In this document: piece by piece, positions 1 through 44,350 of the stretch
Layout: the number at the start of each line of letters is the position of its first letter
Position numbering within the stretch: position 1 is the stretch's first letter
Notes under the pieces: generated by a model
Database searches by the model: none
Told to the model about the DNA's origin: nothing
Seen by the model: the letters and a program-made list of their open reading frames with translations, nothing else
IMG/VR virus record: IMGVR_UViG_3300044949_001893
Span: 1-44,433 of that record
Origin: a virus
Direction: 5' to 3' (one strand)
DNA length: 44,433 bases
Position numbers and translations under genes: made by a program

Positions 1-80
1 ACGTCGACGGCATCCGCAACAAAGCCGCACAGATCCGCGCCGAGAAGCGCAAAGCCCGCGCCGCCAAACGCCGCCGCTGA
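1..80 (+). CDS. 3' end of small early gene (partial copy of the gene at 42939-43184)
   Basis: The first 80 bases encode the last 26 residues of the 81-residue protein encoded in full at 42939-43184, ending in an Arg/Lys/Ala-rich tail (KRKARAAKRRR). The 5' part is cut off by the contig end; base 1 is the second base of a codon. It is a repeated contig end rather than an independent gene. Function unknown. Confidence 0.85.
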   Translation, partial: VDGIRNKAAQIRAEKRKARAAKRRR

Positions 81-90
81 CCGCCCGACA

Positions 91-115
91 CCGGCGCCGC
101 CTCGAGCGGCGCCGG
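91..115 (+). repeat. GC-rich hairpin after the early gene stop codon
   Basis: A perfect 10-bp stem (91-100 with 106-115) closes a 5-nt loop (ctcga), just after the stop codon at 78-80. There is no T-tract behind it, so it is not a classical intrinsic terminator. It may stabilise or process mRNA, or act as a recombination joint. The identical copy is at 43195-43219, and a related hairpin is at 1675-1700. Confidence 0.75.
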
Positions 116-144
116 CACGGACGGCCAAACGGCCAACCAACACA

Positions 145-198
145 ACAACAACCAAACCCGGGAAGATCCGACCCGGCCAAAAACGGGAAAATCAGACA
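145..198 (+). promoter_or_regulatory. Conserved A/C-rich 5' leader
   Basis: The 54 bases before the start at 199 resemble the leaders at 42441-42489 and 43247-43296. All share the order ACAACAA, CCCGG, a GAxCCxACC core, then AAACGG and an A/C-rich run up to the ATG. No Shine-Dalgarno sequence is visible. The leader is probably unstructured and A-rich to load ribosomes, and it marks the entry to a cassette. Confidence 0.6.
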
Positions 199-669
199 AT
201 GAAAGCTAAACTGACCAAGATCATCGTCGGCAACAACTGCCACAGTTACGTGGCCGACGACGCGCCCTGCGGACTGTATGGACAGACTTCCCGGTGCGTC
301 ATGCAATTCACGGACGGCCGGTGGTCCGTCGAGCGCCGCGAGGGTGCTCGCTTCTCCGGCCGCACCATCCACGACACGGCACGCGAGGCCTTGCTCGAGG
401 CCAAGCAGGGCGGGCACACCTACCAGACCCAGCACGCCCGCCGCGGCGCCACTTGGCCGGCCGCCATGGCAGCCAACCTCTACGACTGCCCGAGCGGCGC
501 CCTCGATGCGTTGCAAAACTACATTGACCGCTGCGTCCGCCGCGGCATCCGTCCGAATGTCGACAAATTCATCAACATGGGCAGCGGCGAGACCGTCACC
601 GACGTCCGCGCCGACTTGGACGTCGACCCGTATCTGCACAAACCCCTTAACCTGGCCGCGGCCGCCTGA
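199..669 (+). CDS. Early cassette-B protein, 156 aa, unknown
   Basis: The ATG at 199 directly follows the conserved A/C-rich leader and is the first start in frame. The protein has 156 residues, no membrane segment and no motif I recognise. It has scattered Cys (around residues 15, 24, 33, 98 and 112) and a C-terminal aspartate-rich stretch. It heads a four-gene cassette (199-1664) that is replaced by a different gene set at the other contig end. The position in the early operon suggests a host-takeover or anti-defence accessory protein, which is inference only. Confidence 0.75.
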   Translation: MKAKLTKIIVGNNCHSYVADDAPCGLYGQTSRCVMQFTDGRWSVERREGARFSGRTIHDTAREALLEAKQGGHTYQTQHARRGATWPAAMAANLYDCPSGALDALQNYIDRCVRRGIRPNVDKFINMGSGETVTDVRADLDVDPYLHKPLNLAAAA

Positions 670-673
670 TCCC

Positions 674-925
674 ATGAAGCAATCCGAATTTTTCGAACGT
701 GTCGCAAACATGGCACACTGCGCCACGCAGCTGAACGACCAGCGGCACATTGCCATCTACACGCGGCAACCCAAACAGAACGAGCTCGGCGTGCCTTGCT
801 TCATTCTTTGGATGCCCGCGGCGACCGACCACGACAAGCAGCAGATGCGCAGCGTTCTGCGACTGCTCAAACGTCACAAGCTGGCCGCCCGGGCGGACAT
901 CGACGGCAACATCGCCAACTGGTAA
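674..925 (+). CDS. Early cassette-B protein, 83 aa, unknown
   Basis: The ATG at 674 lies four bases after the previous stop codon (667-669), so the two are probably translated together. The 83-residue product starts MKQSEFFERV and has a basic helix near residues 60-72 (LRLLKRHKLAARAD). No family is recognised. The longer frame opening at 278 is a shadow of the previous gene, so this internal start is preferred. Confidence 0.7.
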   Translation: MKQSEFFERVANMAHCATQLNDQRHIAIYTRQPKQNELGVPCFILWMPAATDHDKQQMRSVLRLLKRHKLAARADIDGNIANW

Positions 926-926
926 C

Positions 927-1421
927 ATGCACGCCGCAACAATGTTCGTCGTCGCGTGCTCCGGCACCAAGTCCCCCGAGTTCATCGCCAACGGCCGCGC
1001 CCTTGCTTGCAACGCCTACGCCGGCCAGCTGTTCCGCATGGCCCGGCGCCAGGTTAGCGAGGCCCGCGCCGCCTGGTGCATCTTGTCCGGCAAATACGGC
1101 TTCGTCTCGCCGCTCGCCGGCATCGACTACTACGAGCAACGCATGCAACCCGTCCGCGGGATCGACGACATGCCGCACGCCTTCGAGCTGCTGCACGACG
1201 ACCCCACCGGCGCCGGCATCCGGTGCGCCTCGAGGATCATTGTCCTGGGCAGCGCACTCTATGCCGAGGCCGCGGCCGCCTTGCTCCGTCGTCACGTAGA
1301 GGCCCCGCTCGCCGGGCTCCCGATCGGCCGCATGCTGCAACGCATGGCCGCCGGGCTCGTCGCCGCCGAGCTGGCCCGCGACATACCGCACCGGCAGCCC
1401 GAGCTCGAGCTCGCCGCTTGA
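927..1421 (+). CDS. DUF6884-like protein
   Basis: The 164-residue product begins MHAATMFVVACSGTKSP. It has the pattern of DUF6884-type phage and plasmid proteins: a first strand ending in ACSGTK, an LYxGxLF-like segment (YAGQLFRMA, about 32-40) and an ILSGKYGFVSPLAGIDYY core (about 52-69). These proteins form a small alpha/beta fold of unknown activity, and a nucleoside- or base-handling role is only suspected. The start at 927 is one base after the previous stop (923-925). It is the best recognisable gene of cassette B and a plausible anti-defence or DNA-modification accessory. The family call is from memory of the motif. Confidence 0.65.
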   Translation: MHAATMFVVACSGTKSPEFIANGRALACNAYAGQLFRMARRQVSEARAAWCILSGKYGFVSPLAGIDYYEQRMQPVRGIDDMPHAFELLHDDPTGAGIRCASRIIVLGSALYAEAAAALLRRHVEAPLAGLPIGRMLQRMAAGLVAAELARDIPHRQPELELAA

Positions 1422-1457
1422 CCAACCAACCACAACCAACCACAACACGAAAACACC
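1422..1457 (+). promoter_or_regulatory. A/C-rich leader (CCAACCAACCAC type)
   Basis: The gap before 1458 consists almost only of A and C in CCAACCAACCA units, ends in ACACC-ATG and has no Shine-Dalgarno sequence. A near-identical leader stands before 44117 in the alternative cassette. The two cassettes thus use the same initiation signal in front of unrelated last genes. Confidence 0.6.
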
Positions 1458-1664
1458 ATGACAACACCGCACACGCTTGACCACTACGCTGCCACCGATC
1501 GCGCCATCGGCCGCCGCATCACCAAATCATTCGGCGCCTGGCTCGAGGAATGCGAGCGCCATGACGCCTGGCACGAGCTGCCCGACGAGCAACGCAAGCC
1601 CACCCTGGCCAACGTCGCCGCATTCCTGGACGACTACGCCGGCTTCGAGAAGGTCGACATTTGA
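1458..1664 (+). CDS. Early cassette-B protein, 68 aa, unknown
   Basis: This small acidic protein (68 residues, MTTPHTLDHYAATDRAIG) is predicted largely helical, with no known motif. It starts right after the A/C-rich leader, and its stop codon touches the start of the shared 86-bp block. It is the last gene of cassette B. It occupies the same slot as the unrelated 77-residue gene at 44117-44350. Confidence 0.65.
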   Translation: MTTPHTLDHYAATDRAIGRRITKSFGAWLEECERHDAWHELPDEQRKPTLANVAAFLDDYAGFEKVDI

Positions 1665-1747
1665 CCGCCGCACCCCGGCGCCGGATAATCCCGGCGCCGG
1701 CAGCGGCCGCCAAACCATGAGCGCACAACAAGCAAAACAAATCGCCC
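1662..1747. repeat. Exact 86-bp direct repeat of 44348-44433 (contig-end overlap)
   Basis: Bases 1662-1747 match the last 86 bases of the window exactly. The block begins at the stop codon of the preceding gene, includes a GC-rich hairpin and runs into the next gene. Together with the 1-127 block it brackets the variable cassette. Confidence 0.95.
1675..1700 (+). repeat. GC-rich hairpin at the right cassette boundary
   Basis: A perfect 10-bp stem (1675-1684 with 1691-1700) closes the loop ataatc. It follows a TGACCGCC stop-codon context also present before the hairpin at 91-115, and the flanks of the two hairpins are alignable. There is no T-tract. The second copy is at 44361-44386. Confidence 0.75.
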
Positions 1748-1908
1748 GCGACACCGTCCGGGATCTTCTCGCCCAACATCCGCCCGGGCTCGTCGTCATG
1801 ATCCTCCGTGAACTAAAGACGATCCTCCGCGCCACCAAAGACATCACCATCTACGCACCAACCGAAGGAAAGCAGACGCATGAAAACCAAAACACCCCGC
1901 ACCCCTAA
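1717..1908 (+). CDS. Small early protein, 63 aa, unknown
   Basis: The ATG at 1717 (MSAQQAKQIARDTVRDLL) follows the boundary hairpin, and the start is duplicated at 44403. The protein has 63 residues: an amphipathic N-terminal helix and a hydrophobic central stretch (PPGLVVMILREL). No family is recognised. It lies outside the variable cassette and appears to be backbone. Confidence 0.6.
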   Translation: MSAQQAKQIARDTVRDLLAQHPPGLVVMILRELKTILRATKDITIYAPTEGKQTHENQNTPHP

Positions 1909-2050
1909 CGCGCCCGACCTCTGCCCCCATTGCGGCGCCTCCATCAACGCCGCCAGCCTCCTCGCCAAACGTCCCAGCCCCGCCCGCGCCGCCGCCGCCC
2001 GCCGCGCCGCCACCTTCCCGCGTCCTAACCGCAGGAAAGCAGCAGCATAA
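1880..2050 (+). CDS. Small CxxC zinc-binding-like basic protein, 56 aa
   Basis: The ATG at 1880 is preceded by a GAAGGAAAG purine tract. The 56-residue frame overlaps the previous gene by 29 bases. It contains one CPHCGAS knuckle (residues 15-21), then a very basic Ala/Arg tail. It ends 23 bases before the convergent gene at 2073 and is the last gene of the rightward early operon. The function may be nucleic-acid binding; this is weak evidence. Confidence 0.5.
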   Translation: MKTKTPRTPNAPDLCPHCGASINAASLLAKRPSPARAAAARRAATFPRPNRRKAAA

Positions 2051-3298: not shown

Positions 3299-3666
3299 GG
3301 TCCAAAACTAAGCGCCGGCCGCGCCTCCAGCCAAGGCCGAATATCCAGCAGCAACCGCTCCGGCACCGCTTCCCCTCGTTGAATCCGCCGCCACACATGC
3401 GCCCCCGACGGCGTATCCGTCGCCCGGATCACCACCGACGGCCCCACCGGCAGCCCCTCCGCCGACGTCCGCACCCGCACCGCGATCGGCGCCACCCCGA
3501 TATACTCATTATTCCGCTCCACATACGCCCCCCGCGGAATCGTCTGCACCAAGATCTCCCGGAAATGCTCCACCTCCGGCGCCGCCACCGGCACCGGCCT
3601 CGAAGCACACCCCGTCCCGATTACAACGGCGACAACGGCTGCAACTGCGCGTGATAATTGTCCCAT
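3295..3666 (-). CDS. Lipoprotein with PEGA-like domain
   Basis: This 123-residue protein starts MGQLSRAVAAVVAVVIGTGC. It has a basic-hydrophobic signal and a GTGC-A lipobox with the lipidated Cys near residue 20. The segment IPRGAYVERNNEYIGVAPIA resembles PEGA surface domains. The start at 3666 lies inside the end of the integrase gene (46-bp overlap), and the end overlaps the next gene by ATGA. It is probably envelope-anchored cargo expressed from the prophage; a spanin role is less likely given its position. Confidence 0.75.
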   Translation of the reverse strand: MGQLSRAVAAVVAVVIGTGCASRPVPVAAPEVEHFREILVQTIPRGAYVERNNEYIGVAPIAVRVRTSAEGLPVGPSVVIRATDTPSGAHVWRRIQRGEAVPERLLLDIRPWLEARPALSFGP

Positions 3667-4772
3667 GCTGTCTTGATTCCCTTCTGCCTTAGAAACGTCG
3701 CCATCGCCGTCAGTCCATACTTCTGCGCCACCTCCGAGCCCGACTGCTTCCGCAACAAATACGCCTTCTTCTCCTTCGGTCCCGCCTCCGGAAAGAACGG
3801 CCGCATAAAACCATTGATCGTCCGACTCGTCAGAATCTTCGCCTCCGTCGGATTCCCCCGCGGTATGACAAACTCCCCATCCCTCCCCAGCGCCCGCAAC
3901 AACTGCCCCAGCACCCGCCGGCGGATCGGCACCACCCCCGCCGACTTCTTCGGCGCAAACTTCGTCCCATCCGCATACGAGTATTCCAGCACCCGGATCT
4001 CCCAATGCTTCGCCCCCCGCTTGATCCAACTCCACCGCAGCGCCGCCACCTCGATATTCCGCAGCCCGCACCACCGCATCAGCGCCCACACCGCCCACAA
4101 CTTCCGCTCCTCCAGATCCGCCGACATCCGCAGCTGCTCCGCCGCCGCCTCCATCCGCGCCAGCGTCCCCGCCTCGATCCCCTGGAACTTCTGCCTCGCC
4201 TCACCCTTCACATTCTCCGCCATCACCTCGCAAAACTCCGACATATCCGGCAACACCAACCCCTCATGCCGATACCACCGCATCGGCTTCTTCCCAAACA
4301 TCACCCGGATCTGCCGCGCCGTCGACTTCCGCCCCTCATGCGCCCCCGGCCACGCCCGAAGATACTTCTCAAACGCCCCCGCCGAGCACCGCGTCATCGA
4401 CACCCCATCCGGGTCCCCGCCGGCAAACGACCGCACAAACTTCCGAAACGCCGACGCATTATTCTTCCGCGTCATCGCCTCCGACATCTCCAGCCAAACG
4501 CGACAAACATCCCCCACCGTTGCATACCCCGGCCGCGCCATAGTTTCCCGCGCATCGCCCCCCGTCAGCAACGACTTGGCAATAATCTTCGCTTGCATCA
4601 GCGCCAGCTTCTTGTCAGTGTGGTGCGTCGTCCGATTGCGCCGCTTCCCATGAATCAGCACCCGGTAATACCAATGCTTTTCACCCTTCGGTTTATACAC
4701 CGTCACCTCGCCATGCTTACGCTGGCGCCGAGCCACTTTACAGTCCACTTCCATACGCGCATCATTGCCCAA
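3621..4772 (-). CDS. int: Tyrosine recombinase / phage integrase (divergent)
   Basis: This 383-residue integrase has a basic N-terminal arm-binding part (YRVLIHGKRRNRTTHHTDKK), a core-binding helical domain (about 90-190) and a catalytic domain. Box I Arg is visible in MRWCGLRNIEVAALRW. The C-terminal box reads AYLLRKQSGSEVAQKYG and ends TAWDNYHA with the likely nucleophile Tyr. The usual His of HxxR is Tyr here, and the LGH position reads LRQ, so two catalytic positions are changed. The first start (4772) is used; an ATG six codons in is possible. It sits directly beside a tRNA-Arg half, the expected attP setting. Confidence 0.85.
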   Translation of the reverse strand: MGNDARMEVDCKVARRQRKHGEVTVYKPKGEKHWYYRVLIHGKRRNRTTHHTDKKLALMQAKIIAKSLLTGGDARETMARPGYATVGDVCRVWLEMSEAMTRKNNASAFRKFVRSFAGGDPDGVSMTRCSAGAFEKYLRAWPGAHEGRKSTARQIRVMFGKKPMRWYRHEGLVLPDMSEFCEVMAENVKGEARQKFQGIEAGTLARMEAAAEQLRMSADLEERKLWAVWALMRWCGLRNIEVAALRWSWIKRGAKHWEIRVLEYSYADGTKFAPKKSAGVVPIRRRVLGQLLRALGRDGEFVIPRGNPTEAKILTSRTINGFMRPFFPEAGPKEKKAYLLRKQSGSEVAQKYGLTAMATFLRQKGIKTAWDNYHAQLQPLSPL

Positions 4773-18379: not shown

Positions 18380-18553
18380 TCAGAGGCGGGCGTTGTGGTC
18401 TTTCGCCATCAGCAAGCCCCATCCGGCGAGTAGACTTGCGCTAACGAGGCCGAGGTCAGGGATTGTGCCGCTGGCCAGAAATTCGCGTCCGGCCGTGGAC
18501 AAGCTGGCGATGATAGTGAGTGCTCCGAGCAGGTTCGTTTTCCAGTTTCTCAT
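18380..18553 (-). CDS. Holin-like membrane protein, 57 aa
   Basis: The ATG at 18553 overlaps the previous stop (ATGA). MRNWKTNLLGALTIIASLST and GLVSASLLAGWGLLMAK give two hydrophobic segments separated by a short polar turn, ending in KDHNARL. This is the usual form of a small class II holin-like protein. Position in the lysis cassette supports it. Confidence 0.7.
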   Translation of the reverse strand: MRNWKTNLLGALTIIASLSTAGREFLASGTIPDLGLVSASLLAGWGLLMAKDHNARL

Positions 18554-18765
18554 TTCTTTAGTTCTTTCTGTTTTTTCCGAATGTCGTGCAGGACGCTCAC
18601 AAGAGTCGCCAAGCCGACCAAAATACCGATGCAAAGACCTGCAACACGCAGGGTTGTTTCAAGGTGGGGCAGCATAGAAAACACCGAGGAGCCGATAGAC
18701 GTGGCCGTTCCGATGACGCCTTTTTCCGTCGTTGTGAAATGGTGATGGAAGTGCGTGATACTCAT
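18550..18765 (-). CDS. Holin / inner-membrane lysis protein, 71 aa
   Basis: The start MSITHFHHHFTTTEKGVIGT at 18765 is ATGA-coupled to the preceding gene. There is a soluble His-rich N-terminus, then one or two transmembrane stretches (TSIGSSVFSMLPHLE and LRVAGLCIGILVGLATLVSVL) and a strongly basic end (RKKQKELKK). It is likely the holin or an i-spanin-like partner. Confidence 0.7.
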   Translation of the reverse strand: MSITHFHHHFTTTEKGVIGTATSIGSSVFSMLPHLETTLRVAGLCIGILVGLATLVSVLHDIRKKQKELKK

Positions 18766-19037
18766 AGCCACACCCTCCGTTGCTGGGTCGGCGTCACGCT
18801 GTAGGTCGGTGCCGGATCGGGCCGGTCGTCGGTCACCCGCAGATTGAGATGCCAGCCGTCGAGGAGCGTGCTCACCGGATTCTCGGGGTCGGTCATGTCC
18901 ACGTCTGCCAGCACGCCGACAGGATCGAGGGCATAGCCGGTGCCGCTTGTTTGCCATCCGGTCTCGGCATCATAGTAATCGGCCAGAACGGTTTGCGCCG
19001 TGGCCTCGTCGGGGAACTTGTAGAGAAAGTCTTGCAT
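18762..19037 (-). CDS. Small tail-associated protein, 91 aa
   Basis: MQDFLYKFPDEATAQTVLAD with VDMTDPENPVSTLLDGWHLN and RVTDDRPDPAPTYSVTPTQQ matches the style of short phage proteins encoded after fibre genes, sometimes called fibre-assembly proteins. There are no membrane segments. It is coupled to the holin gene by ATGA. Function is inferred from position only. Confidence 0.65.
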   Translation of the reverse strand: MQDFLYKFPDEATAQTVLADYYDAETGWQTSGTGYALDPVGVLADVDMTDPENPVSTLLDGWHLNLRVTDDRPDPAPTYSVTPTQQRRVWL

Positions 19038-19038
19038 G

Positions 19039-20349
19039 TTACGTCGTGAGTTGTTGCAGCAGCGTGTCGCTCAAGCGGCGGGGCCAGTAGGCGATCTTGG
19101 CGATGTGTCCGCTGTAGACGCCCGTTGCTGCAAGCCTTCTTCCAATGCGAAGGCGTGTTACCGTAGGCATGGTGCCGCTGGTGTCGGCGGTTCCGAGCGT
19201 CCCGTTCAGCGCCGCTTGAAAATCGTTCTCCTTAATTGCCCCTGCCATTTTATAGGTGAATGGCTCAGTAATCGCAGAGCCGATGCCAATGGCCGCTTGA
19301 GATACACCGCCGTCCACAACCACAAGAGATGGTATTCCGCTGCTCAAGACAGAAATTCTGGCCACTTCGTTTTCCGTCGTGTCGTCGAAAAGCAACGGCG
19401 TTCCGTCCGTGTTTTTGCGGATCACGCCTTCAGCAAATAGCGTGCCTTCGGCTTGGTTGTAGAAAGACGAAATTGAGGTGATGTCGGCGACATCCGTGGC
19501 GCGGGTGGCGGCGGCGGATGTCGTCGGGATGTAGGACGTGGGGAAGGCGCCTTGCTCAAGCTGCGGGGCGGCTATGCGGAGGGTTAGGTCGATGGGGTTG
19601 CCGGAGGTGTAGACGATGTTGACAAAGCCGTTAACGCGCTCAACGGTTGCGTCTGTGAACGCAAATGCTGCCGATGAACGCTGCGTCGAAAGCGCGGCGG
19701 ATGTTGGGGTGATGGTGGGTTGGGACGCTTGCCCTGCAACGCTTGTTCCGCCAGCAACGCGACCCGAAATAGTGTGCCGCACAGTGGCATTCGATAGCGA
19801 GCCAGCGACCAGTTTGTAATACGCTGAAGCTGCCCATGTCTGTCCATTGGCGGCAACAACTTGTGTGTTGGCTTCAAAAAATATAGTGACCGAAGAAGAA
19901 GCGGAAGGCGTTCCGCTAAATTTGATGTCGATGTAGGACAATCCTGCTTCAGTCCCAGTGCCGATGATTTCAGTAGAAACGCCATTTGCAGCAGCATTTG
20001 CAGATGCCCAATGCGTCGGAACCGCTCCGCCACTCCCAATCGCCCCATTGGTCGAACCACCAGCCTGCGAGTTGCGGATGCTGTTGGTTCTGGCCTCCTC
20101 GATGAGAAGCCCAAGCGAATTTCCGTTGGCCGAATCGTGGTCAAATCGCGGGACGTTATTGCTGGCCGTTTGCAGCACACCATCAGCATCAAAGAAAGTC
20201 GCGTTGCTTGCCCGCGTGAACGTGATGGCGGGGCCGGTGGCATGATCTAGCGTCTTGAACTGCGCGAAGTCACGCTGGAACGTGGGCAAATCAAGGAGGT
20301 AGAACAGCTCCGTGTTGCGCAGCAGGCCTCCTGAGAATCCTTGGATCAT
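19039..20349 (-). CDS. Tail fibre / LamG-like carbohydrate-binding structural protein, 436 aa
   Basis: The start MIQGFSGGLLRNTELFYLLD at 20349 overlaps the previous stop (ATGA). The segment FTRASNATFFDADGVLQTAS followed by GLLIEEARTNSI is a common signature of phage proteins with concanavalin/LamG-like modules. The C-terminus (RLRIGRRLA...GHIAKIAYWPRRLSDTLLQQL) is the closing strand of such a domain. It probably binds host surface glycans. Identity of the exact fibre component is uncertain. Confidence 0.75.
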   Translation of the reverse strand: MIQGFSGGLLRNTELFYLLDLPTFQRDFAQFKTLDHATGPAITFTRASNATFFDADGVLQTASNNVPRFDHDSANGNSLGLLIEEARTNSIRNSQAGGSTNGAIGSGGAVPTHWASANAAANGVSTEIIGTGTEAGLSYIDIKFSGTPSASSSVTIFFEANTQVVAANGQTWAASAYYKLVAGSLSNATVRHTISGRVAGGTSVAGQASQPTITPTSAALSTQRSSAAFAFTDATVERVNGFVNIVYTSGNPIDLTLRIAAPQLEQGAFPTSYIPTTSAAATRATDVADITSISSFYNQAEGTLFAEGVIRKNTDGTPLLFDDTTENEVARISVLSSGIPSLVVVDGGVSQAAIGIGSAITEPFTYKMAGAIKENDFQAALNGTLGTADTSGTMPTVTRLRIGRRLAATGVYSGHIAKIAYWPRRLSDTLLQQLTT

Positions 20350-20600
20350 TTGTTGTAGGCGATGATTGACCCACTGTGCAGGTCGATGGCGGTGAAGAGA
20401 CCGAAGATGGTCAGGCCGGCGGGCACCTCGATGGCGCTGCCGAGGGACGTGTTGGCGAGGCCGGTGACGTTGCCGGTCAAGGTGTGAAACTTGGTGTCGG
20501 TCACGGCTTGGATCGCGGCCCACTCGCCGGTGTAGAGGGCGGTGTCGCCGATGTATTGAGCGCCGGAGAGGCTGTTGGTGATGCGTGCGTTAGGGTTCAT
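20346..20600 (-). CDS. Small beta-rich structural protein, 84 aa
   Basis: MNPNARITNSLSGAQYIGDT... is a compact Thr/Gly-rich sequence resembling other small late proteins here (23330-23539 also starts MNPN). It is likely a virion decoration or fibre-adapter protein. It is coupled to the fibre gene by ATGA. Confidence 0.65.
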   Translation of the reverse strand: MNPNARITNSLSGAQYIGDTALYTGEWAAIQAVTDTKFHTLTGNVTGLANTSLGSAIEVPAGLTIFGLFTAIDLHSGSIIAYNK

Positions 20601-20610
20601 GATTTTAGGA

Positions 20611-20710
20611 GTGTGAAGGTTGGAAGGTGGGAAGGTGTGAAAGTTGGCGGTTGGCAGTATCGGTTGGCTTCGCTTTGCTCAGCCTGTCTCGCGGACTCGG
20701 CTGTCAGTCG
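20611..20710. repeat. Intergenic repeats: heptamers plus dispersed element
   Basis: This gap holds 7-nt units (GAAGGTT, GGAAGGT, GTTGGCG, GTTGGCA) at 20617-20657. It then holds a 37-nt element at 20666-20702 that recurs inverted at 26218-26255 and partly at 29186-29207. No gene or promoter is seen. Confidence 0.75.
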
Positions 20711-21331
20711 TCAGTAATGTCCGATTCTGGCGGACCAGGCTTGGGGTTGGTTTTGTTGGAAGTAAAATTTATCTCTTTCGGTCACTAGTTCGTTCATGGC
20801 TTTTTCTTCCATGAGGGTTGATTTCGTGAGCTGGCCGTCTTCTTCGAGGAGGCTGGCCGTGAGGTAGTAGCCGACGGCTTTGCTTAGGACGGCGGGGACC
20901 GTCGCCGAGAGATTTGATGTGGTGTAGGTGTCGGGGCGGAGGCGGTATCTCACCCAGGCGGTCGTGGGGATGTCGGTGTCGTCCGGAAAGCGGATGCTGT
21001 CGCCGAGGAGGCTGTATTGGAGTTCGCGGGGTGAGGCTGTTTTGTTCGGATTGTCCCTGGTGATCTGGAAGACTTCGCCCATCGGGGTCTCGCCGCCGCC
21101 TTGGACGTAGTCGATGTAGTAGCCGGTGGTTGCGTTGCCTTGGATGGTGCGCTCCTCGATGCGGCACAATTCGGGCCAATCGGCCCAGGTCCAGCAGGCC
21201 TCGATGGCGTCGTTCGCCGCGGCGACGAGCATGGTCTGCGCACCGCTCGGGATGTTGGAGATGGATGAGGCGTCGTTGCCGACTCTCTGCCAGGCGCGGA
21301 GGAGGATCGATTGGAGTTGAACGGTTCTCAC
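20711..21331 (-). CDS. Head-tail adaptor / tail-tubular-A-like protein, 206 aa
   Basis: The GTG at 21331 forms a GTGA overlap with the previous stop and fits the N-terminus RTVQLQSILLRAWQRVGNDA. The longer open frame upstream is Arg/Pro-rich shadow. The pattern NDAIEACWTWADWPELCRIEERTI and a C-terminal helical EEKAMNELVTERDKFYFQQNQ is typical of podoviral adaptor proteins (P22 gp4/T7 gp11 type) that bind under the portal. Confidence 0.75.
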   Translation of the reverse strand: MRTVQLQSILLRAWQRVGNDASSISNIPSGAQTMLVAAANDAIEACWTWADWPELCRIEERTIQGNATTGYYIDYVQGGGETPMGEVFQITRDNPNKTASPRELQYSLLGDSIRFPDDTDIPTTAWVRYRLRPDTYTTSNLSATVPAVLSKAVGYYLTASLLEEDGQLTKSTLMEEKAMNELVTERDKFYFQQNQPQAWSARIGHY

Positions 21332-21642
21332 GGCTCGGTGTCTTTGGGTAGAAGCGGGTCGATGTCTTGCATGGAGATGACTTCGACTTGGGCGAAAAGT
21401 TGCGGGTCGAGGGCGGCGAAGCCTTGTGCGTAGAGGCCGCCGTCGATTTCGGTGAGCAGAGCGGCGCGGATCATCCAGCGGCCGTCGGTGAGCGCAGCGG
21501 GGGCAACGCGGTTTTGCGAAGGAGGCAGCGATGATTGAGTGGCCAAGAGGGCGTCTTTGAGAGCGGCGTCCATAACGAGGCCGTATTGCGCGGCGTCTTG
21601 GTAGGTGGGCAGACCGTTGGCTATGTATTGGTCGAGCGTCAT
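21328..21642 (-). CDS. Small structural protein, 104 aa
   Basis: MTLDQYIANGLPTYQDAAQY... is a soluble alpha/beta protein between the adaptor gene and a larger surface protein, coupled at both ends. No motif is recognised. It is likely a tail-completion or fibre-related component. Confidence 0.65.
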   Translation of the reverse strand: MTLDQYIANGLPTYQDAAQYGLVMDAALKDALLATQSSLPPSQNRVAPAALTDGRWMIRAALLTEIDGGLYAQGFAALDPQLFAQVEVISMQDIDPLLPKDTEP

Positions 21643-22484
21643 AGCAGGGCGGATTGGATGGAACCGACGAGGCGTTGGACGTTTTTGGCCAAGAGTTCAA
21701 GGTCGAGTGCCGTGCCAACGGAGTAGAAGGCAATGCGGTGCGCGCCAGCGCCGCTACCAGCTACGCGACGGTAAACAAGCACGTTTTGGTTAAATGGCGT
21801 CTGCGACGTTGAGCTTAATGTCTCCATCGGCGCGGAACCGGAGATGGCGGTATAGGTGGTGCTGGCGGCGCGGCTCAGACCGATAAGGCCAATAACTGAA
21901 GATCCGTTGGCAAGGTTGACTGCCGTGGTGTTGCGGCTGCGTGTTGTTGGGTTGTTAAAGATGTGCGTTGTTCCAGTGTCTGATGCGCCGCCTGCGCCCA
22001 TGATGGGGTTTCCTAATGACACTGTGCGCGTGCCATAGCATGCGATGTGCTGATCGTTTTGTCCGTCCGCGTTATTGTTGCGGTTGGTATCAATCCATTG
22101 CGTGCCGGTGCCATAGAGGCCGTAGGCGCGGGAGTAGTCGCCGCTGACGAAGTTGTTGTTGGTCGGCGCGGTGCCGACCAAGGGCTTGAGGGCGCCGGTA
22201 AGCGTGCGGGCGCCGCACAAAATGGCGCTGGCCTTGATGGCGGTCCAGATGCCGTCGTCCTTGCAGCCTTTGACAAAGGTGTGGATAGCCTCGCGCACGG
22301 CGGGTTCAAGGGCTTGGGCATCACTGATTTCGACTTCAGCAATGTAAGCGGCGGCGTCGGCATCCATGCCGCCCCAGCGGTTCTCGCGGCGGGCGATGGC
22401 TTGTGGACGGAGCGCCCAAACTCCTCCGACACGCGAGATGCGCGGGGAGTTGTCAACGCCGAGGATGGAACCGTTGAACCGCAT
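21639..22484 (-). CDS. Structural protein with LamG-like pattern, 281 aa
   Basis: The start MRFNGSILGVDNSPRISRVG at 22484 overlaps the upstream stop by one base (TAATG). The upstream open frame is Arg-rich noise. The middle (YGLYGTGTQWIDTNRNNNAD, HIACYGTRTVSLGNPIMGAG) and Ser/Thr-rich C-terminus suggest a beta-sandwich, perhaps a concanavalin-like surface domain. It lies among head-tail genes. The exact virion role is unknown. Confidence 0.65.
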   Translation of the reverse strand: MRFNGSILGVDNSPRISRVGGVWALRPQAIARRENRWGGMDADAAAYIAEVEISDAQALEPAVREAIHTFVKGCKDDGIWTAIKASAILCGARTLTGALKPLVGTAPTNNNFVSGDYSRAYGLYGTGTQWIDTNRNNNADGQNDQHIACYGTRTVSLGNPIMGAGGASDTGTTHIFNNPTTRSRNTTAVNLANGSSVIGLIGLSRAASTTYTAISGSAPMETLSSTSQTPFNQNVLVYRRVAGSGAGAHRIAFYSVGTALDLELLAKNVQRLVGSIQSALL

Positions 22485-22858
22485 TAGCTGATTTCTTCGT
22501 AGCTGACGACGACTTCGAGGTCGCTGGCGGTTCCGGCCGTGGCGCCGAGCGAAGAGTCCTCGCGGAGATAAAGCGGGGCGTCTTTGCTGACGACGACGAC
22601 AGTGGCATCGGCGGGGACGCTGACGGTGCTGGCGATTTTGAAGGCGGTGCCGCCGATGTCGTCTTGGGTGTAATACGCCACGGTCACGTCGCAAGCGGCG
22701 CTGCCGTCCACGTTGGCGACATAGACGGAGTTGACCTTGAGCAGCTTGCCGGACGAGGCGGCGTTGTTGAGGATGGCCGTGGCGTTGGTGGTAGAAAGTG
22801 CCGTGCCGGCGGTGTAGCCGGTGATGGCGGTAGCTGAGTTGATATTGGGAGTTGCCAT
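22484..22858 (-). CDS. Small virion protein, 124 aa
   Basis: MATPNINSATAITGYTAGTA... is a Thr/Ala/Val-rich beta protein (KVNSVYVANVDGSAACDVTV, SVPADATVVVVSKDAPLYL). It is typical of capsid decoration or neck-surface proteins that sit between portal and adaptor genes. The start at 22858 is the first ATG. Confidence 0.7.
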   Translation of the reverse strand: MATPNINSATAITGYTAGTALSTTNATAILNNAASSGKLLKVNSVYVANVDGSAACDVTVAYYTQDDIGGTAFKIASTVSVPADATVVVVSKDAPLYLREDSSLGATAGTASDLEVVVSYEEIS

Positions 22859-32046: not shown

Positions 32047-33744
32047 TCAGTAGCTGCCTAGGGGTTGGAAGCTGAGGTCGGTGTTGTCGTGGTAGCTGGC
32101 GCCGCTGAGGACTAGGTATCTCAGGACGTCGATGGCATCTTTTGTTCCGGAGGTTTTGGGGCCCGTCCCCGTGTATTGGCTCAAGGCGAAGATGACGTTT
32201 TTGCAGTTGCTGGTGACGTAGAGGGTCGGCTGGTTGAGGGCGCCGATGGGCTGGCTGTCGTCGTAAGACAGCCAGTTAATAATCATCGTCACGCCTTCGG
32301 CGATGCCGTCGCCGGGGGCGGCGGTGAAGTGGAGGCCGATCTCGCTGCATTCTTCGATCAAGGTTGTCGCCCCTTCCCTGGCGACGGTGGCGGCGTTGCC
32401 ATAGCGGCTGTCCATGATCCGCTCGAAGATGACGAAGTCTTCGGCGTCGCGGGCGTGGCGGGTTTCGATGTTTTCGATCTCGAGTTTGTAGTGGCTTAAC
32501 CCGAAGCCGAAGCTGCGCTGGGCGTCGCCGGCGATGCCGTCGGGGTTGTTGCCGCCGGGGACGGCCCAGGGGCCGGGGAGGCCGACGCCGGGGACTTCGC
32601 GGACTTGGCTGGGCCATTCGTCATAAACGAAGCAACGGCCGGCGGCGTCGAAGCGGGCCCAAATCATGAACCAGTTGCGGCCGGAGCACGGGTCGACGAC
32701 TTGGTAGTTGACGCCGCGTTTCGGCACGCGGTCGGGGGGGATGACGTGGATGTTGGTGTTGAAGTTGACGAACATGTTGGCGGCCTTTTTCGTGGGGACG
32801 CCGTAGGCTCGCATGAGGATGCGGTCTTTGGGGGACTTGATGAGTTCGGTCTTCATGGCTTCGTAGTTGCCGAAGGGGTTGTCGGCAGTGTGGAAGTAGA
32901 CGACGCGGGCGGTGGGCTTGGCGCATTGCTGGACGCGGGGGACGCGGATGGGGCGGGCTTTATTATCGAGGACGAGCTCGGCTTCCGTGTCCTCGAGGGT
33001 GATGGCGCCGGCGAGGTATTCGGCAACGGTGTCGGTGTAGCCGAGGACGGGCGTGAAGCCGACGGCGAGTTCGCCGTTGCGGGTGATGAGGCGGAAGCGG
33101 AGGGCTTCGATCCACTCGGGACTCACGAGTTCGTCGGCCCAGCAGTAGGTTAATTCGGCGCCTTCTACGGCTTTGACGTCCATGGAATAAAATTTGAACC
33201 AGCACTGACTGCCGTTCGGCAGGACAAATGAGTTTTCTGTAAAACCCCCTTTCTGTGAGTAGGTGATGTTCGTGACGACCCCCTTGCGGAGCTTGCCGGA
33301 GGCGGCGGGTTTCCATTCGGCGGGCAGGTATTCCCAGATGTAGGGTTGCTGGTTCTGGATGCTGGAGGCTTCGGTGGATTGCAGGCACCAGACTTTGGCG
33401 CCGGGGGTATTGACCAGGATCTGCACGGCGCGGCGGGCGAGGTAGCGGGATTTGCTGGCGCGGTTGCCGCCGAGGATGAGGAGCTCGGTGACGCCTTTGG
33501 GGAATTGCTCGCGGAGCTCGGCGAATTGGCGGTCGGCCGTGGACCAAACGGGCAGGACGGCGCCGTAGCGGTAAGGATCTTCGATCTCGAGGCGGATGCG
33601 CTCTTCGAAAAGTTTGTGGAATTCGACGAGCTGATCCGGGGTCATGCGGCGGACGCCGTCGTCGAAGCGGACAAGGACGTTGCCGGCGGGGTCGCGGCCG
33701 AGGATGGTCGGCGCGGCGTGGATCGGATGCTGGGTGAAGATCAC
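32047..33744 (-). CDS. terL: Terminase large subunit, 565 aa
   Basis: It packages DNA: an ATPase motor and nuclease. Walker A is GGNRASKS (about 92-99), Walker B the WADE of LTYCWADELVSPEW, and a first nuclease Asp lies in NYQVVDPCSGRNWFMIWARF. The end has DAIDVLRYLVLSG. The start is probably GTG at 33744 (VIFTQHPIHAA); the frame upstream is repeat and shadow sequence. The gene is preceded by a heptamer array, so the ribosome-binding site is unusual. No clear small terminase is adjacent. Confidence 0.9.
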   Translation of the reverse strand: MIFTQHPIHAAPTILGRDPAGNVLVRFDDGVRRMTPDQLVEFHKLFEERIRLEIEDPYRYGAVLPVWSTADRQFAELREQFPKGVTELLILGGNRASKSRYLARRAVQILVNTPGAKVWCLQSTEASSIQNQQPYIWEYLPAEWKPAASGKLRKGVVTNITYSQKGGFTENSFVLPNGSQCWFKFYSMDVKAVEGAELTYCWADELVSPEWIEALRFRLITRNGELAVGFTPVLGYTDTVAEYLAGAITLEDTEAELVLDNKARPIRVPRVQQCAKPTARVVYFHTADNPFGNYEAMKTELIKSPKDRILMRAYGVPTKKAANMFVNFNTNIHVIPPDRVPKRGVNYQVVDPCSGRNWFMIWARFDAAGRCFVYDEWPSQVREVPGVGLPGPWAVPGGNNPDGIAGDAQRSFGFGLSHYKLEIENIETRHARDAEDFVIFERIMDSRYGNAATVAREGATTLIEECSEIGLHFTAAPGDGIAEGVTMIINWLSYDDSQPIGALNQPTLYVTSNCKNVIFALSQYTGTGPKTSGTKDAIDVLRYLVLSGASYHDNTDLSFQPLGSY

Positions 33745-33767
33745 AGATTGGAGATTTGAGATTTCAG
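33745..33767. repeat. Heptamer array before the terminase start
   Basis: GATTGGA GATTTGA GATTTCA fills the 20-bp gap between the terminase GTG and the upstream gene stop. No Shine-Dalgarno sequence is present. Confidence 0.8.
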
Positions 33768-33949
33768 AGGGCTGAGGCGGCCGTGACGATTTGCTCTTCG
33801 ATATCTTCCCAGTTTTCGGGCGCTTCGGGTTGATCCCACTCGATGCGGGTGGGGCCGCGTTCGTGGGCAGCAAACGTGATCGTGCCGGTGTATTCGCCAT
33901 GCTGCCACGCGTAGCGCGACGGGCTTTCGGTTTGTTCGATGGTTGTCAT
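33764..33949 (-). CDS. Small acidic phage protein, 61 aa
   Basis: MTTIEQTESPSRYAWQHGEY... starts at 33949 with ATGA overlap to the methyltransferase stop; a longer start at 33973 would overlap more. Acidic end (PENWEDIEEQIVTAASAL). Function unknown. Confidence 0.6.
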   Translation of the reverse strand: MTTIEQTESPSRYAWQHGEYTGTITFAAHERGPTRIEWDQPEAPENWEDIEEQIVTAASAL

Positions 33950-34776
33950 TTCTCTACGTGTAAAATTTGCCATGCGAGAGCAGCCACTGCTGGAACTTGT
34001 CCGTTTCCAACGGACTTAATGCGGTCCAACCAACTGGCCATCCCATGACCCATTCCGGCAACTCGGGGCAGTAGTCCGGTCCGGAAATCGTGACATTCAC
34101 CAGGCCCTTCATATTCACAGTTTGGGCAGCCGTATTTGCCCAGTTGGTCGTCGAAGATATGCCCACATTTCTCACAAGATCGAAAAGCAACATCGGCAAC
34201 CGATCCAATCGTGTCTTGCCGTCCTTGCGTTCCGTCCCCATGCCCAAGGTGTCCTTCCAATCGCGGGCGGTAGGAGTTGGAAGCGTAGAACCATAACCGC
34301 TTGCGTTTATGACCAAGTCCGACAGCGTCAGCTCCCAAAGTGATCCATCGGCATGCATACCCGAGGCGGGCAAGCTGGAAGACAATTTGCTCAAGTCCGC
34401 TTGTTCGGAGAGCAGGTGAGTTTTCACCGAAAACATAGGCAGGGCGAACCTCGCCAATAATTCGCAGCATCTCGCGCCATAAACCGGACCTGTCACCCCC
34501 AAGGCCCTCGCGACCCCACATTGCTCGCGCAACGCTGATGTCTTGGCAAGGAAAGCCCCCCGATACCACATCAACAAATCCGGCCCAGGGTCGCCCATCG
34601 AAGGATCGGACGTCATCCCAAATTGGAAAAGGCTCAAGGATTCGGTCGTTCTGTCGTGCCAGCAATACGCTTCGGGGATATCGCTCGATTTCAACGGCGC
34701 AAACCGTTCGCCATCCGTGGAGGACGCTTCCAAGTATTCCTCCACCAGCGCCTGTGAAAAGTGCCAGCTCATTCAC
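33946..34776 (-). CDS. dcm: DNA cytosine-5 methyltransferase with zinc-ribbon insert, 276 aa
   Basis: The motifs of a C5 DNA methyltransferase are in order: FTGAGGG (6-13, SAM binding), GGFPCQDIS with catalytic Cys77, GENS at the ENV position, HKRKRLWF at the QxRxR position and GNGQVPAV near the end. A zinc-ribbon-like CEKCG...CPNCE insert sits around 204-224. It methylates cytosine in DNA, probably protecting phage DNA from host restriction. The only start in this frame near the N-terminus is GTG at 34776, two codons before an out-of-frame ATG used by the overlapping frame. Confidence 0.9.
   Translation of the reverse strand: MNELALFTGAGGGILGSVLHGWRTVCAVEIERYPRSVLLARQNDRILEPFPIWDDVRSFDGRPWAGFVDVVSGGFPCQDISVARAMWGREGLGGDRSGLWREMLRIIGEVRPAYVFGENSPALRTSGLEQIVFQLARLGYACRWITLGADAVGLGHKRKRLWFYASNSYRPRLEGHLGHGDGTQGRQDTIGSVADVAFRSCEKCGHIFDDQLGKYGCPNCEYEGPGECHDFRTGLLPRVAGMGHGMASWLDRIKSVGNGQVPAVAALAWQILHVEK
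33954..34772 (-). CDS. Overlapping gene in a second frame inside dcm (MSWHFS family), 272 aa
   Basis: The same DNA is open for 272 codons in another frame on the same strand. The product starts MSWHFSQALVEEYLEASSTD and contains FSVKTHLLSEQADLSKL, STLPTPTARDWKDTLG and ends EWVMGWPVGWTALSPLETDK. From memory this N-terminus, PTPTARD and WxMGWP pattern is a recurrent phage protein family. Its ATG at 34772 is ATGA-coupled to the upstream gene, a better signal than the GTG of dcm. Both frames look constrained. A role in methylation control or counter-defence is speculation. Confidence 0.6.
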   Translation of the reverse strand: MSWHFSQALVEEYLEASSTDGERFAPLKSSDIPEAYCWHDRTTESLSLFQFGMTSDPSMGDPGPDLLMWYRGAFLAKTSALREQCGVARALGVTGPVYGARCCELLARFALPMFSVKTHLLSEQADLSKLSSSLPASGMHADGSLWELTLSDLVINASGYGSTLPTPTARDWKDTLGMGTERKDGKTRLDRLPMLLFDLVRNVGISSTTNWANTAAQTVNMKGLVNVTISGPDYCPELPEWVMGWPVGWTALSPLETDKFQQWLLSHGKFYT

Positions 34777-37736: not shown

Positions 37737-37747
37737 GGCGGAAGAAG

Positions 37748-37806
37748 GGAAAGTTGGCAGTTGGCAGTTGGCAGGGATTGGAGATTGGAGATTTGAGATT
37801 TGAGAG
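37748..37806. repeat. Heptamer arrays (GTTGGCA, then GATTGGA/GATTTGA)
   Basis: GTTGGCA units (37752-37773) run directly into GATTGGA GATTGGA GATTTGA GATTTGA units (37776-37803) in the gap before the helicase gene. Two heptamer classes are joined as at 35577-35657. Confidence 0.9.
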
Positions 37807-37808
37807 GG

Positions 37809-37994
37809 TCAGAGTTCGGAGGGGGTGGCGGTGGTTTTCAAACGGGCGTATGATTCGAGGGCGGTGCCGCGGCTGTGCCAGGCGTGGCTGTCGATGGTGC
37901 CGCAATCGCGGAGGCAGGCGGCGAGGAAGGCGGCGACTTCTTGCCAGCGTTCGAGCTGGGATTGGAGAACGGCGATTTGTTCGTCGGGGCTCAT
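37809..37994 (-). CDS. Short coiled-coil protein, 61 aa
   Basis: MSPDEQIAVLQSQLERWQEV... predicts a helix and leucine-zipper-like start, then RDCGTIDSHAWHSRGTALES. The function is unknown. The ATG at 37994 overlaps the previous stop (ATGA). Confidence 0.6.
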   Translation of the reverse strand: MSPDEQIAVLQSQLERWQEVAAFLAACLRDCGTIDSHAWHSRGTALESYARLKTTATPSEL

Positions 37995-38218
37995 TGCAAG
38001 TCGGGGTCGAGGGCTTCGCTGCGGGCGTCGATGGCTCTTTGGGTTAGTGGGGCGCAGAGTTTTAGGGCGCGTTCGAGTCGTTCGATGCGCTTCGCGGCTT
38101 TGTCATAGAGTTCGGCGAGTTGGATGCTGGTGGGGGCGGTGGGGAAGTCGGGGGGAAATTTCCGGTAGGGCGTGAAGCTGGCGCGGCCGACGGTGTAGGT
38201 GTGGCTGGTGGTTTTCAT
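37991..38218 (-). CDS. Small helical protein, 75 aa
   Basis: MKTTSHTYTVGRASFTPYRK with a C-terminal helix AAKRIERLERALKLCAPLTQ. ATGA-coupled at both ends. No family is recognised. Confidence 0.6.
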   Translation of the reverse strand: MKTTSHTYTVGRASFTPYRKFPPDFPTAPTSIQLAELYDKAAKRIERLERALKLCAPLTQRAIDARSEALDPDLQ

Positions 38219-38313
38219 GACATGAGGAGGGCGAGGCCGAGGGCGGTGTAGATGGCAAGGGCGGCCAACAGGAGGAGGCCGGTGCGGAGTTGGGTGCGGG
38301 TTTTGTTTGTCAT
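38215..38313 (-). CDS. Tiny membrane protein, 32 aa
   Basis: ATG at 38313 to TGA at 38215-38217: MTNKTRTQLRTGLLLLAALAI and continues with LALLMS. One hydrophobic helix with a basic start. ATGA-coupled downstream, so likely real. Function unknown. Confidence 0.5.
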   Translation of the reverse strand: MTNKTRTQLRTGLLLLAALAIYTALGLALLMS

Positions 38314-38320
38314 AGGGGGG

Positions 38321-41641: not shown

Positions 41642-41742
41642 CGCTGGCCCCTCCGCATCAACTTTCCCAGCTCGTGAAACACCCCGGCCAACGCGACCAG
41701 CAACGAGCACAGCAAAAATAAAATTACGGCCGAATCATTCAC
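41638..41742 (-). CDS. Tiny membrane protein, 34 aa
   Basis: GTG at 41742 overlapping the previous stop (GTGA) and stopping with ATGA over the next start. The product contains SAVILFLLCSLLVALAGVF, one transmembrane helix, then a basic tail KLMRRGQR. Coupling at both ends supports translation. Confidence 0.5.
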   Translation of the reverse strand: MNDSAVILFLLCSLLVALAGVFHELGKLMRRGQR

Positions 41743-41912
41743 GCGGCGGCCTCCGGTTGAGCGTCGCCAGCCTCGAGCCGACGGCGCTGAATTTCATTGA
41801 TGAGGATAAGCCGGACGGCCGCGGAGCGGCTTAAACACTGGCTCCGCGAGAGATCATCAATCTTCTCGAGGATGTCCGCCGGCACGTGCAGGGCGAGCAC
41901 TTTGGTGGGCAT
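41739..41912 (-). CDS. Ribbon-helix-helix (CopG/Arc-type) regulator, 57 aa
   Basis: MPTKVLALHVPADILEKIDD, then LSRSQCLSRSAAVRLILINE, is a short RHH DNA-binding protein. ATG at 41912; a GTG three codons upstream (41921) is an alternative. It is transcribed leftward, facing the rightward RHH gene at 41991. The two starts are separated by palindromic operators (41922-41961). It is likely the repressor or regulator of the leftward replication and late operon. Confidence 0.75.
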   Translation of the reverse strand: MPTKVLALHVPADILEKIDDLSRSQCLSRSAAVRLILINEIQRRRLEAGDAQPEAAA

Positions 41913-41921
41913 GAGGAACAC

Positions 41922-41990: not shown

Positions 41991-42269
41991 ATGAAACGCA
42001 CACCCCGGCGCAAGTCGGACCAATCCGCCGGCAAGGGCCGCACCCGCATCAGCACCACCATTACCGAAGCCACGGACGCCGAGCTCTGCCGCCTCGCCGA
42101 AGCCTCGAGCCTCACCCGCGCCGCCATGGCCCGGGAATGCATCACCGACGCAGTAGCCCGCGGCCTGACCATCACCGCCCACAAAAGCCACGCGGGCAAA
42201 GTCATTGATTATCCCCTGGCCCACCCCGGAAACCCCACCGCCCGCGCTGCCGACGATGCGGGAGCGTGA
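41991..42269 (+). CDS. Second ribbon-helix-helix regulator, 92 aa
   Basis: MKRTPRRKSDQSAGKGRTRI, then TITEATDAELCRLAEASSLT and RAAMARECITDAVARGL, is a CopG-type RHH protein with a basic N-terminal arm. It is oriented rightward, opposite to the RHH gene ending at 41739. The pair resembles a two-regulator decision switch. It stands before the strong early promoter. Confidence 0.75.
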   Translation: MKRTPRRKSDQSAGKGRTRISTTITEATDAELCRLAEASSLTRAAMARECITDAVARGLTITAHKSHAGKVIDYPLAHPGNPTARAADDAGA

Positions 42270-42376: not shown

Positions 42377-42404
42377 TTGACACTTAGCGAGCGCACGCTA
42401 TATT
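42377..42404 (+). promoter_or_regulatory. Strong sigma70-like early promoter
   Basis: TTGACA (42377-42382), 16-nt spacer, TATATT (42399-42404). The spacer contains an inverted TAGCG/CGCTA that could be an operator. It would drive the rightward early operon from 42490 on. Confidence 0.8.
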
Positions 42405-42440: not shown

Positions 42441-42489
42441 ACAACAAACCCGGACGAGCCGACCGGATAAAAAACGGGCAAATCAAACA
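42441..42489 (+). promoter_or_regulatory. Conserved A/C-rich leader, copy 1
   Basis: The 49 bases end with AATCAAACA before the ATG at 42490. They share ACAACAAACCCGGA, GAGCCGACCGG and AAAACGGGCAAA with the leaders at 43247-43296 and 145-198. There is no Shine-Dalgarno sequence. Confidence 0.65.
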
Positions 42490-42942
42490 ATGCAAAGCAA
42501 AATCCAAAACGCACTGCACCAACTCGGCATCGGGTTGTTCACGTGCAAGTCGTCATATGACAAACCGAACGCGCAGCAAAACCTCGCCGGCCGCACGCAT
42601 TACGCGGACGCCGACACCCTGCGTTATTTCAAGTCGCGTATCCTCCGCGGCTACGACCGGCACAACGGGCTCTTGTTCGTTGTTATCGAGAGCGTAGGCA
42701 GCAAACCCTACGACACCAACCGCAACAAACGCGCCGTCGTGTTCGACGTGTTCGGCACCGTGGTCAACGATCGCGACGAGTGGTTTGCCACCTCCGCCCA
42801 GGCGATTAAGGCCGCGTCCGAGTTCATCGAGACGTTTAACGCCGAAGCCTGGACCGTGACCGAGCTCGAGCTCCGCGCCGCCGCTATGGTCCGCGACGCC
42901 GGCCGCATCATCGACGCTCTCGAAGGACAGGAGGCCGCATGA
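42490..42942 (+). CDS. First early protein, 150 aa, unknown
   Basis: MQSKIQNALHQLGIGLFTCK starts right after the conserved leader. Features: GRTHYADADTLRYFKSRILR, a beta unit LLFVVIESVGSK, and a C-terminal helix (LRAAAMVRDAGRIIDALEGQ). No family is recognised. As first gene after the early promoter it may act in host takeover; inference. Its stop overlaps the next start by 4 bases. Confidence 0.7.
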   Translation: MQSKIQNALHQLGIGLFTCKSSYDKPNAQQNLAGRTHYADADTLRYFKSRILRGYDRHNGLLFVVIESVGSKPYDTNRNKRAVVFDVFGTVVNDRDEWFATSAQAIKAASEFIETFNAEAWTVTELELRAAAMVRDAGRIIDALEGQEAA

Positions 42943-43184
42943 CCACGCTGAACAAACCCATCACCCGCAAAGCGCACACCCAGCCGGCCGCCCATGGCGT
43001 CCGGCCGGACCTCGTCATATCGCTGCACCCCGGCGGCATCATCGGCATCCGCGAAGCCGGCCGCCGCGACGCCTCCGGCATCATGTTTGAGGCCGCCCGG
43101 CTTTACGTCGACGGCATCCGCAACAAAGCCGCACAGATCCGCGCCGAGAAGCGCAAAGCCCGCGCCGCCAAACGCCGCCGCTGA
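42939..43184 (+). CDS. Small early protein, 81 aa
   Basis: MTTLNKPITRKAHTQPAAHG... with a basic end (RKARAAKRRR). ATGA-coupled. Its 3' part is duplicated at 1-80. Possibly DNA- or RNA-binding by charge; unknown. Confidence 0.7.
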   Translation: MTTLNKPITRKAHTQPAAHGVRPDLVISLHPGGIIGIREAGRRDASGIMFEAARLYVDGIRNKAAQIRAEKRKARAAKRRR

Positions 43185-43231
43185 CCGCCCGACACCGGCG
43201 CCGCCTCGAGCGGCGCCGGCACGGACGGCCA
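43105..43231. repeat. Second copy of the 127-bp block, with hairpin
   Basis: Identical to 1-127, including the hairpin at 43195-43219. After 43231 the sequences part into cassette A (here) and cassette B (128 on). Confidence 0.95.
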
Positions 43232-43246
43232 CCAGGCCAACCAAAC

Positions 43247-43296
43247 AACCACAACAAACCCGGAAGAGCCAACCGACCAAACGGGCAAACAACCAC
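43247..43296 (+). promoter_or_regulatory. Conserved A/C-rich leader, copy 2
   Basis: It shares ACAACAAACCCGGA, GAGCC, ACC and AACGGGCAAA with the other two leaders and ends CAACCAC-ATG. It stands at the entry of cassette A. Confidence 0.6.
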
Positions 43297-44116: not shown

Positions 44117-44350
44117 ATGAACAACACACAACGCAAAGAATTCGCCGACTTGTTGCGCAAATGGAAGGCCACTGACCTGGCCTCCGTTATCAGCGAGGAA
44201 GCGAACGACGAAGTCACCACCCTCGAAGTCTACGAGCGCCGGCCGGATCTTGGCGGCGCACTCGTTCACCGCTTCAACATCCACCCCGATCTCATCGAGA
44301 TGTTCGAAGCCGCCGACGTCGACGGCCTCGCGTTCAAAGTTATACCCTGA
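44117..44350 (+). CDS. Cassette-A protein, 77 aa, unknown
   Basis: MNNTQRKEFADLLRKWKATD then NIHPDLIEMFEAADVDGLAF. Acidic helical. It fills the slot of the 68-residue gene of cassette B but shows no similarity to it. Its stop codon lies in the shared 86-bp block. Confidence 0.65.
   Translation: MNNTQRKEFADLLRKWKATDLASVISEEANDEVTTLEVYERRPDLGGALVHRFNIHPDLIEMFEAADVDGLAFKVIP

Follow-up and report, generated by a model that had tools for sequence, protein, structure and literature searches.

Contig ends that probably carry two alternative versions of an early gene module in a temperate phage

Gene shuffling by promoter-early stem-loops (PeSLs) in T4-like phages is reportedly the subject of two original papers, Arbiol 2010 and Comeau 2014. 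PeSL cassettes are composite promoter–terminator motifs, according to the available parts of two sources (PMC4503421, PMC4177764). In Cluster K mycobacteriophages, the SAS/ESAS elements lie just upstream of many non-structural starts, and half contain an inverted repeat; the available part of that paper suggests roles in translation initiation and in recombination (PMC3203893). A third point of comparison is the anti-defence islands in the leading regions of plasmids, which resemble the present locus in being early-expressed, variable sets of protective genes, anti-restriction genes among them (PMC11541004).

This article examines a locus that spans the two ends of the window, i.e. the whole stretch of viral DNA that was analysed (44,433 nucleotides; IMG/VR record IMGVR_UViG_3300044949_001893). 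The explanation advanced here, which as a whole we consider probable, is that the contig ends are alternative versions, A and B, of a single module of early genes in a temperate phage, both present in the same sample. Evidence from related contigs suggests how such versions may arise.

Locus organisation and the contig ends

The order of the locus is operator/promoter, leader, gene slots, and a constant last gene (Table 1), with promoter and palindrome preceding the first leader. The small regulators that adjoin the operator may act as repressors; a family search with the second of them gave no match. In three relatives (L075, L081, L082), the sequence upstream of the leader is without the TAGCGAGCGCACGCTA palindrome. 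The promoter scan found no promoter-like site in the window's two V linkers. A promoter match of 9–10 of 12 positions overlaps the W linker, its −10-like part being the hairpin loop.

Table 1. Features of the locus and its surroundings, in window coordinates.
Feature	Coordinates	Strand	Remarks
Candidate repressor, RHH-type regulator	41739..41921	−	weak RHH_1 match, E 0.0009, 19.5 bits; just misses Pfam cut-off of 20.5
Second small conserved protein beside operator	41991..42269	+	conserved in relatives; CopG-like by eye only
Early promoter, TTGACA-16-TATATT	42377..42404	+	promoter scan; sigma-70-like
Palindromic operator-like TAGCGAGCGCACGCTA	42385-42400	+	inside promoter; once only in window; kept in close relatives
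First leader, ahead of gene P	42442..42492	+	covariance model match, E 5e-18
Gene P, first slot, 150 aa	42490..42942	+	relatives have ArdA, ArdC or RadC-JAB in this slot
Gene X, 81 aa	42939..43184	+	basic, pI 11.8; in L006, L007, L015, L017, L073, L076, L078
V block, backbone-side copy	43105..43231	+	exact repeat
V linker, path B	43182..43296	+	TGA, GC hairpin 43195-43219, leader with conserved element 43252-43299
B1, 74 aa	43297..43521	+	also in L006, L010
B2, 56 aa	43518..43688	+	identical protein in L007
B3, 131 aa	43685..44080	+	pI 4.1, acidic; model all-helical; most frequent slot gene among relatives
B4, 77 aa, last slot	44117..44350	+	behind A/C leader (44078-44116); unrelated ORF instead in L010
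W block, right contig end	44348..44433	+	exact repeat; path B dies there
V block, left contig end	1..127	+	gene X 3' end and hairpin; equals 43105-43231; as long as a relative's 127-bp end overlap
V linker, path A	78..198	+	TGA, GC hairpin 91-115, A/C-rich leader, conserved element 150-201
A1, 156 aa	199..669	+	relative in L006 (50%)
A2, 83 aa	674..925	+	no family match
A3, DUF6884 protein	927..1421	+	Pfam 2.1e-13
A4, 68 aa, last slot	1458..1664	+	behind A/C leader (1419-1457); also in L009, L037, L078
W linker	1662..1716	+	TGA, hairpin 1675-1700, ends at ATG of constant gene
W block	1662..1747	+	W linker and first 31 nt of constant last gene; equals 44348-44433
Constant last gene, 63 aa	1717..1908	+	array end; kept in relatives
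56-aa gene after constant gene	1880..2050	+	in relatives
Integrase	3621..4772	−	PHROG 1, E 1.3e-16

The contig ends are tied together by the exact repeats already reported in the initial annotation, of 127 bp (V block) and 86 bp (W block). Among the window's exact repeats of 25 bp or more, these two rank first by length (the third longest has 32 bp), and both pairs are direct, not inverted. The DNA between the blocks is indeed unrelated, leader stretches excepted (cassette A, 128–1661, 1534 bp; cassette B, 43232–44347, 1116 bp). The two cassettes share the leader start (43105–43289 versus 1–191, 93% match) and the A/C-rich leader ahead of the last gene (44077–44127 versus 1418–1467, 88%). It was also correct that both open with the same leader type, here a linker composed of TGA, hairpin and leader, that both finish with an A/C leader and a last small gene (A4 or B4), and that both are closed by a second hairpin linker (1662–1716; 44348–44402).

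The left edge of the 127-bp block is not a biological boundary, because the block begins inside the end of gene X; the final 86 bp end 31 nt inside the next gene. Biologically, the cassettes are bounded by the TGA and ATG codons. Among relatives with long records, the closest (L006; 42190 bp, its backbone 93% identical to the window in the part compared) has an identical 127 bp at both ends, and this end repeat maps mid-gene, within 40236–40362 of the window. Because this circular closure measures exactly 127 bp, the V block is most plausibly a single k-mer overlap of an assembler, which we take to be of the SPAdes type with k = 127; a literature search gave no usable source on assembler k-mer overlaps. 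Two more distant records (G008, G009; ends L095–L098) have end overlaps of exactly 123 bp, and six other records have none; the 123-bp overlaps look like assembler overlaps, not biological terminal repeats. Recurring lengths of this kind are characteristic of k-mer overlaps.

The same closure of L006 makes a circular assembly that forks at one locus, with two versions in the sample, the simplest reading of the window. The contig would start with the 127-mer at the fork of the assembly graph, follow one branch into cassette A, and run round the genome to the same 127-mer; there the path would leave via cassette B and die 86 bp into the shared block. The circles would measure about 43.1 kb (path A) and 42.7 kb (path B).

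Related phages, many of them represented by short contigs, show single paths. Four (L006, L010, L015, L017) cross the region unbroken in one contig, with one path each. L010 has the order ArdA, V linker, B1, B3, a different last gene and W, and thus joins cassette B genes directly to the 86-bp block and beyond; in L009, A3-A4-W (98%) is joined to the same 86-bp block, and the upstream slots differ. No relative among those examined has the W hairpin twice. Given these single paths and the 127-bp closure of L006, the initial annotation's picture of a circular phage with an early module in at least two versions is supported and was largely right. Its layout of alternative cassettes holds, but it missed several slots, as well as the coming and going of single ORFs and of the whole island. 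The search of related phages for further cassettes that it proposed found slots with other genes.

Each link between cassette and backbone depends on one shared 127-mer, and cassette B (or A) might belong to another co-occurring phage species, attached through that 127-mer. Such a chimeric join would suit the block lengths of 127 and 86 bp, about one k-mer per link, and the death of path B in the second block. We nevertheless regard it as unlikely, given L010, where the B genes are 94–97% identical on a backbone that is itself 81–95% identical nearby (window 37.3–42.5 kb); even a chimera would leave two versions of the locus coexisting in the sample. An arrangement with both cassettes in tandem on one molecule is very improbable. 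The ends would fuse in frame, and relatives do have several V linkers in tandem, yet a second W block would be required, with the first 10 codons of the constant gene fused to the end of X, and neither a double W nor such a fusion is seen in any relative.

We give least credence, amounting to hardly any, to programmed switching, in which a recombinase would exchange cassettes within one clone in the manner of phase variation. The slots do have short repeated linkers on either side, and the alternative versions apparently occur together, but the blocks are direct, not inverted, the alternative cassette is stored nowhere else in the window, and the integrase is the only recombinase recognised among the genes tested. 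The reading as two alternative versions, in which A and B would coexist on the same backbone, is the one followed below.

Linkers, exchange and RNA structure

All V linkers counted start with TGA (17/17) and end with ATG (17/17), and hairpins are present in every V and W linker. There are up to three V linkers per genome, with different genes between them. The W hairpin sequence is found exactly in five other viral contigs. Optional last genes sit between the A/C leader (TGACCAACCAACC...ATG) and the W linker, and L010 swaps exactly this ORF. When linkers with different neighbours are paired, identity is 0.58 just before the TGA, equal to the random value of 0.58, and 0.89 from the TGA on; at the 3' edge it is 0.80 before the ATG and 0.64 after. 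These alignments demonstrate, at the level of sequence, that genes are swapped singly between stop codon and start codon, homology starting and stopping at those codons. A hairpin-pattern match in L046, with neither linker nor leader, was set aside as chance.

Identity to the window is also uneven along L007: 74.6% for the backbone, 97% for V plus leader (201 bp), 86% for B2–B3 and 89% for W. In several pairs, shared segments are more identical than the backbone. We read this as exchange of locus parts between diverged phages; for the coding segments, stronger constraint is the weaker alternative.

A mechanism can be proposed on this basis. The locus would be an operator-controlled early operon with its slots divided by a stereotyped linker, in which the upstream stop codon is followed by the GC hairpin and then, at the following start codon, by the structured A/C-rich leader. 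Since every linker supplies a translation start of its own and is common to these phages, ORFs could be replaced, added or removed by homologous recombination in the linkers and the constant flanks, and the operon would be left undisturbed. Linker recombination is thus the presumed exchange route; the genes tested included one recognisable recombinase, the integrase.

The leader, of about 50 nt, occurs in 51 copies in 23 contigs, which are not all independent (the L073 and L077 loci are near-identical). Its covariance model covers 29 copies in the window plus 11 relatives; a further 11 contigs contribute 22 copies, most of which were fetched by a pattern that fixes GCC/GGC and lend little independent support to the pairing. 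Within the window, the model matches only the three leaders of this locus. Leader and constant gene persist in L075, L080, L081 and L082, whose shared non-slot proteins are 23–67% identical.

In a hand alignment of nine stem variants, the V hairpin changes pair type at 7/8 outer positions, and two of the 72 cells are mismatched. In the leader, 93.5% of cells conform to the helix CCGG/CCGG and a loop-to-downstream pairing KCC/GGM. Two-sided changes in the leader comprise C-G/G-C (5/25) and G-C/U-A (6/25); no shuffle or slide matched the covariation score, a type of score that kinship among the sequences inflates. The aligned copies show that the predicted hairpin and a short, pseudoknot-like leader pairing are conserved via compensatory changes. 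This leader pairing is kept in 18/18 linkers and may form a nested helix or an H-type pseudoknot. A closing helix between the 5' end of the linker and the leader, present in the predicted fold, was not adopted, one of its pairs being broken in 7/18 linkers. Folding is far better for complete linkers than for shuffled sequences (z −4.6 and −5.6); for the isolated leader it is not. The GC hairpin is strong but not followed by a T run, and the linkers drew no terminator call. Rfam 15 gave no gathering match in the window; within 42330–43330, matches were at chance level only. The idea that the leader is a small riboswitch-like pseudoknot likewise found no Rfam match.

Covariation supports the leader as a candidate for a new RNA element. 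More tentatively, and with a role for the RNA fold that we infer, the entire linker might be an undescribed RNA element, made up of a post-stop GC hairpin and an H-type pseudoknot before the start. Each slot would then be a self-contained translation unit, and the linker a standard gene socket, spread by recombination among phages with differing operators. If this rather doubtful extension is true, unrelated early counter-defence ORFs could be inserted codon-exactly.

Cargo, island and host

In relatives, the first slot contains ArdA (L007, where it is cut by the contig end, L010, L015, L017), RadC-JAB (L006, L008, L009, L037) or ArdC (L029, L036; in L037 ArdC is in the second slot). The Pfam families of all three were confirmed on one member each, and ArdA and ArdC exceed the Pfam cut-offs; known anti-defence genes are hence present at the locus in relatives. 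Because the slots hold ArdA and ArdC, known anti-restriction families, and RadC-JAB, the locus is most likely an exchangeable store of early counter-defence genes.

A counter-defence role may extend to the genes of A and B. P, A1, A2, A4 and B1–B4 gave no informative family match, and no known anti-defence family was found among P, A1–A4 and B3–B4, A3 being assigned to DUF6884 only. In L073, L076 and L078, A3 directly follows X instead. Gene P has distant relatives, annotated without function, in Manatee Spring phage and Rheinheimera phages; its single-sequence fold was unusable (pLDDT 47). The confident, all-helical fold of B3 matched no solved structure, and gave three weak matches to uncharacterised phage proteins only. 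Its acidity resembles that of ArdA (pI 4.1 and 4.2, respectively), which is suggestive only.

The island can also be absent altogether. L011, 97.6–97.7% identical on both flanks, is without all of it (42356–2066, across the contig ends), including the promoter, 42355 being joined to 2067; it is also missing in more distant relatives, e.g. L012–L014, L016 and L018. Adjoining the island is a second spot of precise gene presence/absence: an FGE-sulfatase-like gene (PF03781; 2342–3298) is absent almost ORF-exactly in L006 and L007, with 2342 joined to about 3289.

The phage is temperate, since it carries an integrase gene. Its HTH protein has relatives, 64–66% identical, in two Verrucomicrobiota MAGs. 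In the Chthoniobacter flavus MAG, the HTH relative, dnaB, terminase-like and replication genes lie in one stretch; in the other, the HTH relative is accompanied by an integrase and a xis-like gene. The leader element was not found in these two stretches. The integrase search of bacterial genomes gave no match, nor did a distant-similarity DNA search of phage records with the locus. Judging by these gene relationships, Verrucomicrobiota is the probable host phylum.

Several observations concern the remainder of the genome. The window regions 32047–33900 and 36339–41404 have relatives in the MAG contigs L059 and L060. A C5-cytosine methyltransferase gene (33954–34772) is located near the terminase-like gene, and the Manatee Spring phage with the gene P relative also has a methyltransferase beside its terminase. 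In the structural region (18550–22694), ORFs have odd third-position GC and overlapping frames, possibly due to frameshifts or misassembly.

Linker and leader together provide a sequence handle for new early phage genes that are counter-defence candidates, in little-known phages whose hosts are probably Verrucomicrobiota. They also pose a testable general question, namely how single early genes are exchanged between phages without breaking the operon.

Comparison with described systems

Like the plasmid leading-region islands, the locus has variable cargo; it differs from them in being an early operon of a phage, under a sigma-70-like dsDNA promoter, and in having as its unit a single ORF or a small ORF group between linkers (PMC11541004).

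SAS/ESAS repeats share with the leader a position just ahead of start codons, but are of other sequence and spread along half the genome, whereas here alternative cargo is confined to one locus; a linker exact from stop to start is not described in the available part of that source (PMC3203893). Compared directly, the 13-bp SAS/ESAS sequence GGGATAGGAGCCC differs from the leader consensus and does not count as a match.

The likeness to PeSLs lies in short, repeated stem-loop regulatory elements between small early genes, in variable regions, and in the shuffling attributed to these elements, so far as the available parts of the sources go (PMC4503421, PMC4177764). In contrast to PeSLs, the scan gave no promoter-like site in the window's V linkers, the operon has a single promoter at its head, and a structured translation leader closes the linker. 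As far as we could find, there is no earlier description of this type of linker, of its place in this phage group or of the RNA element; the principle of exchange is known from the PeSLs of T4.
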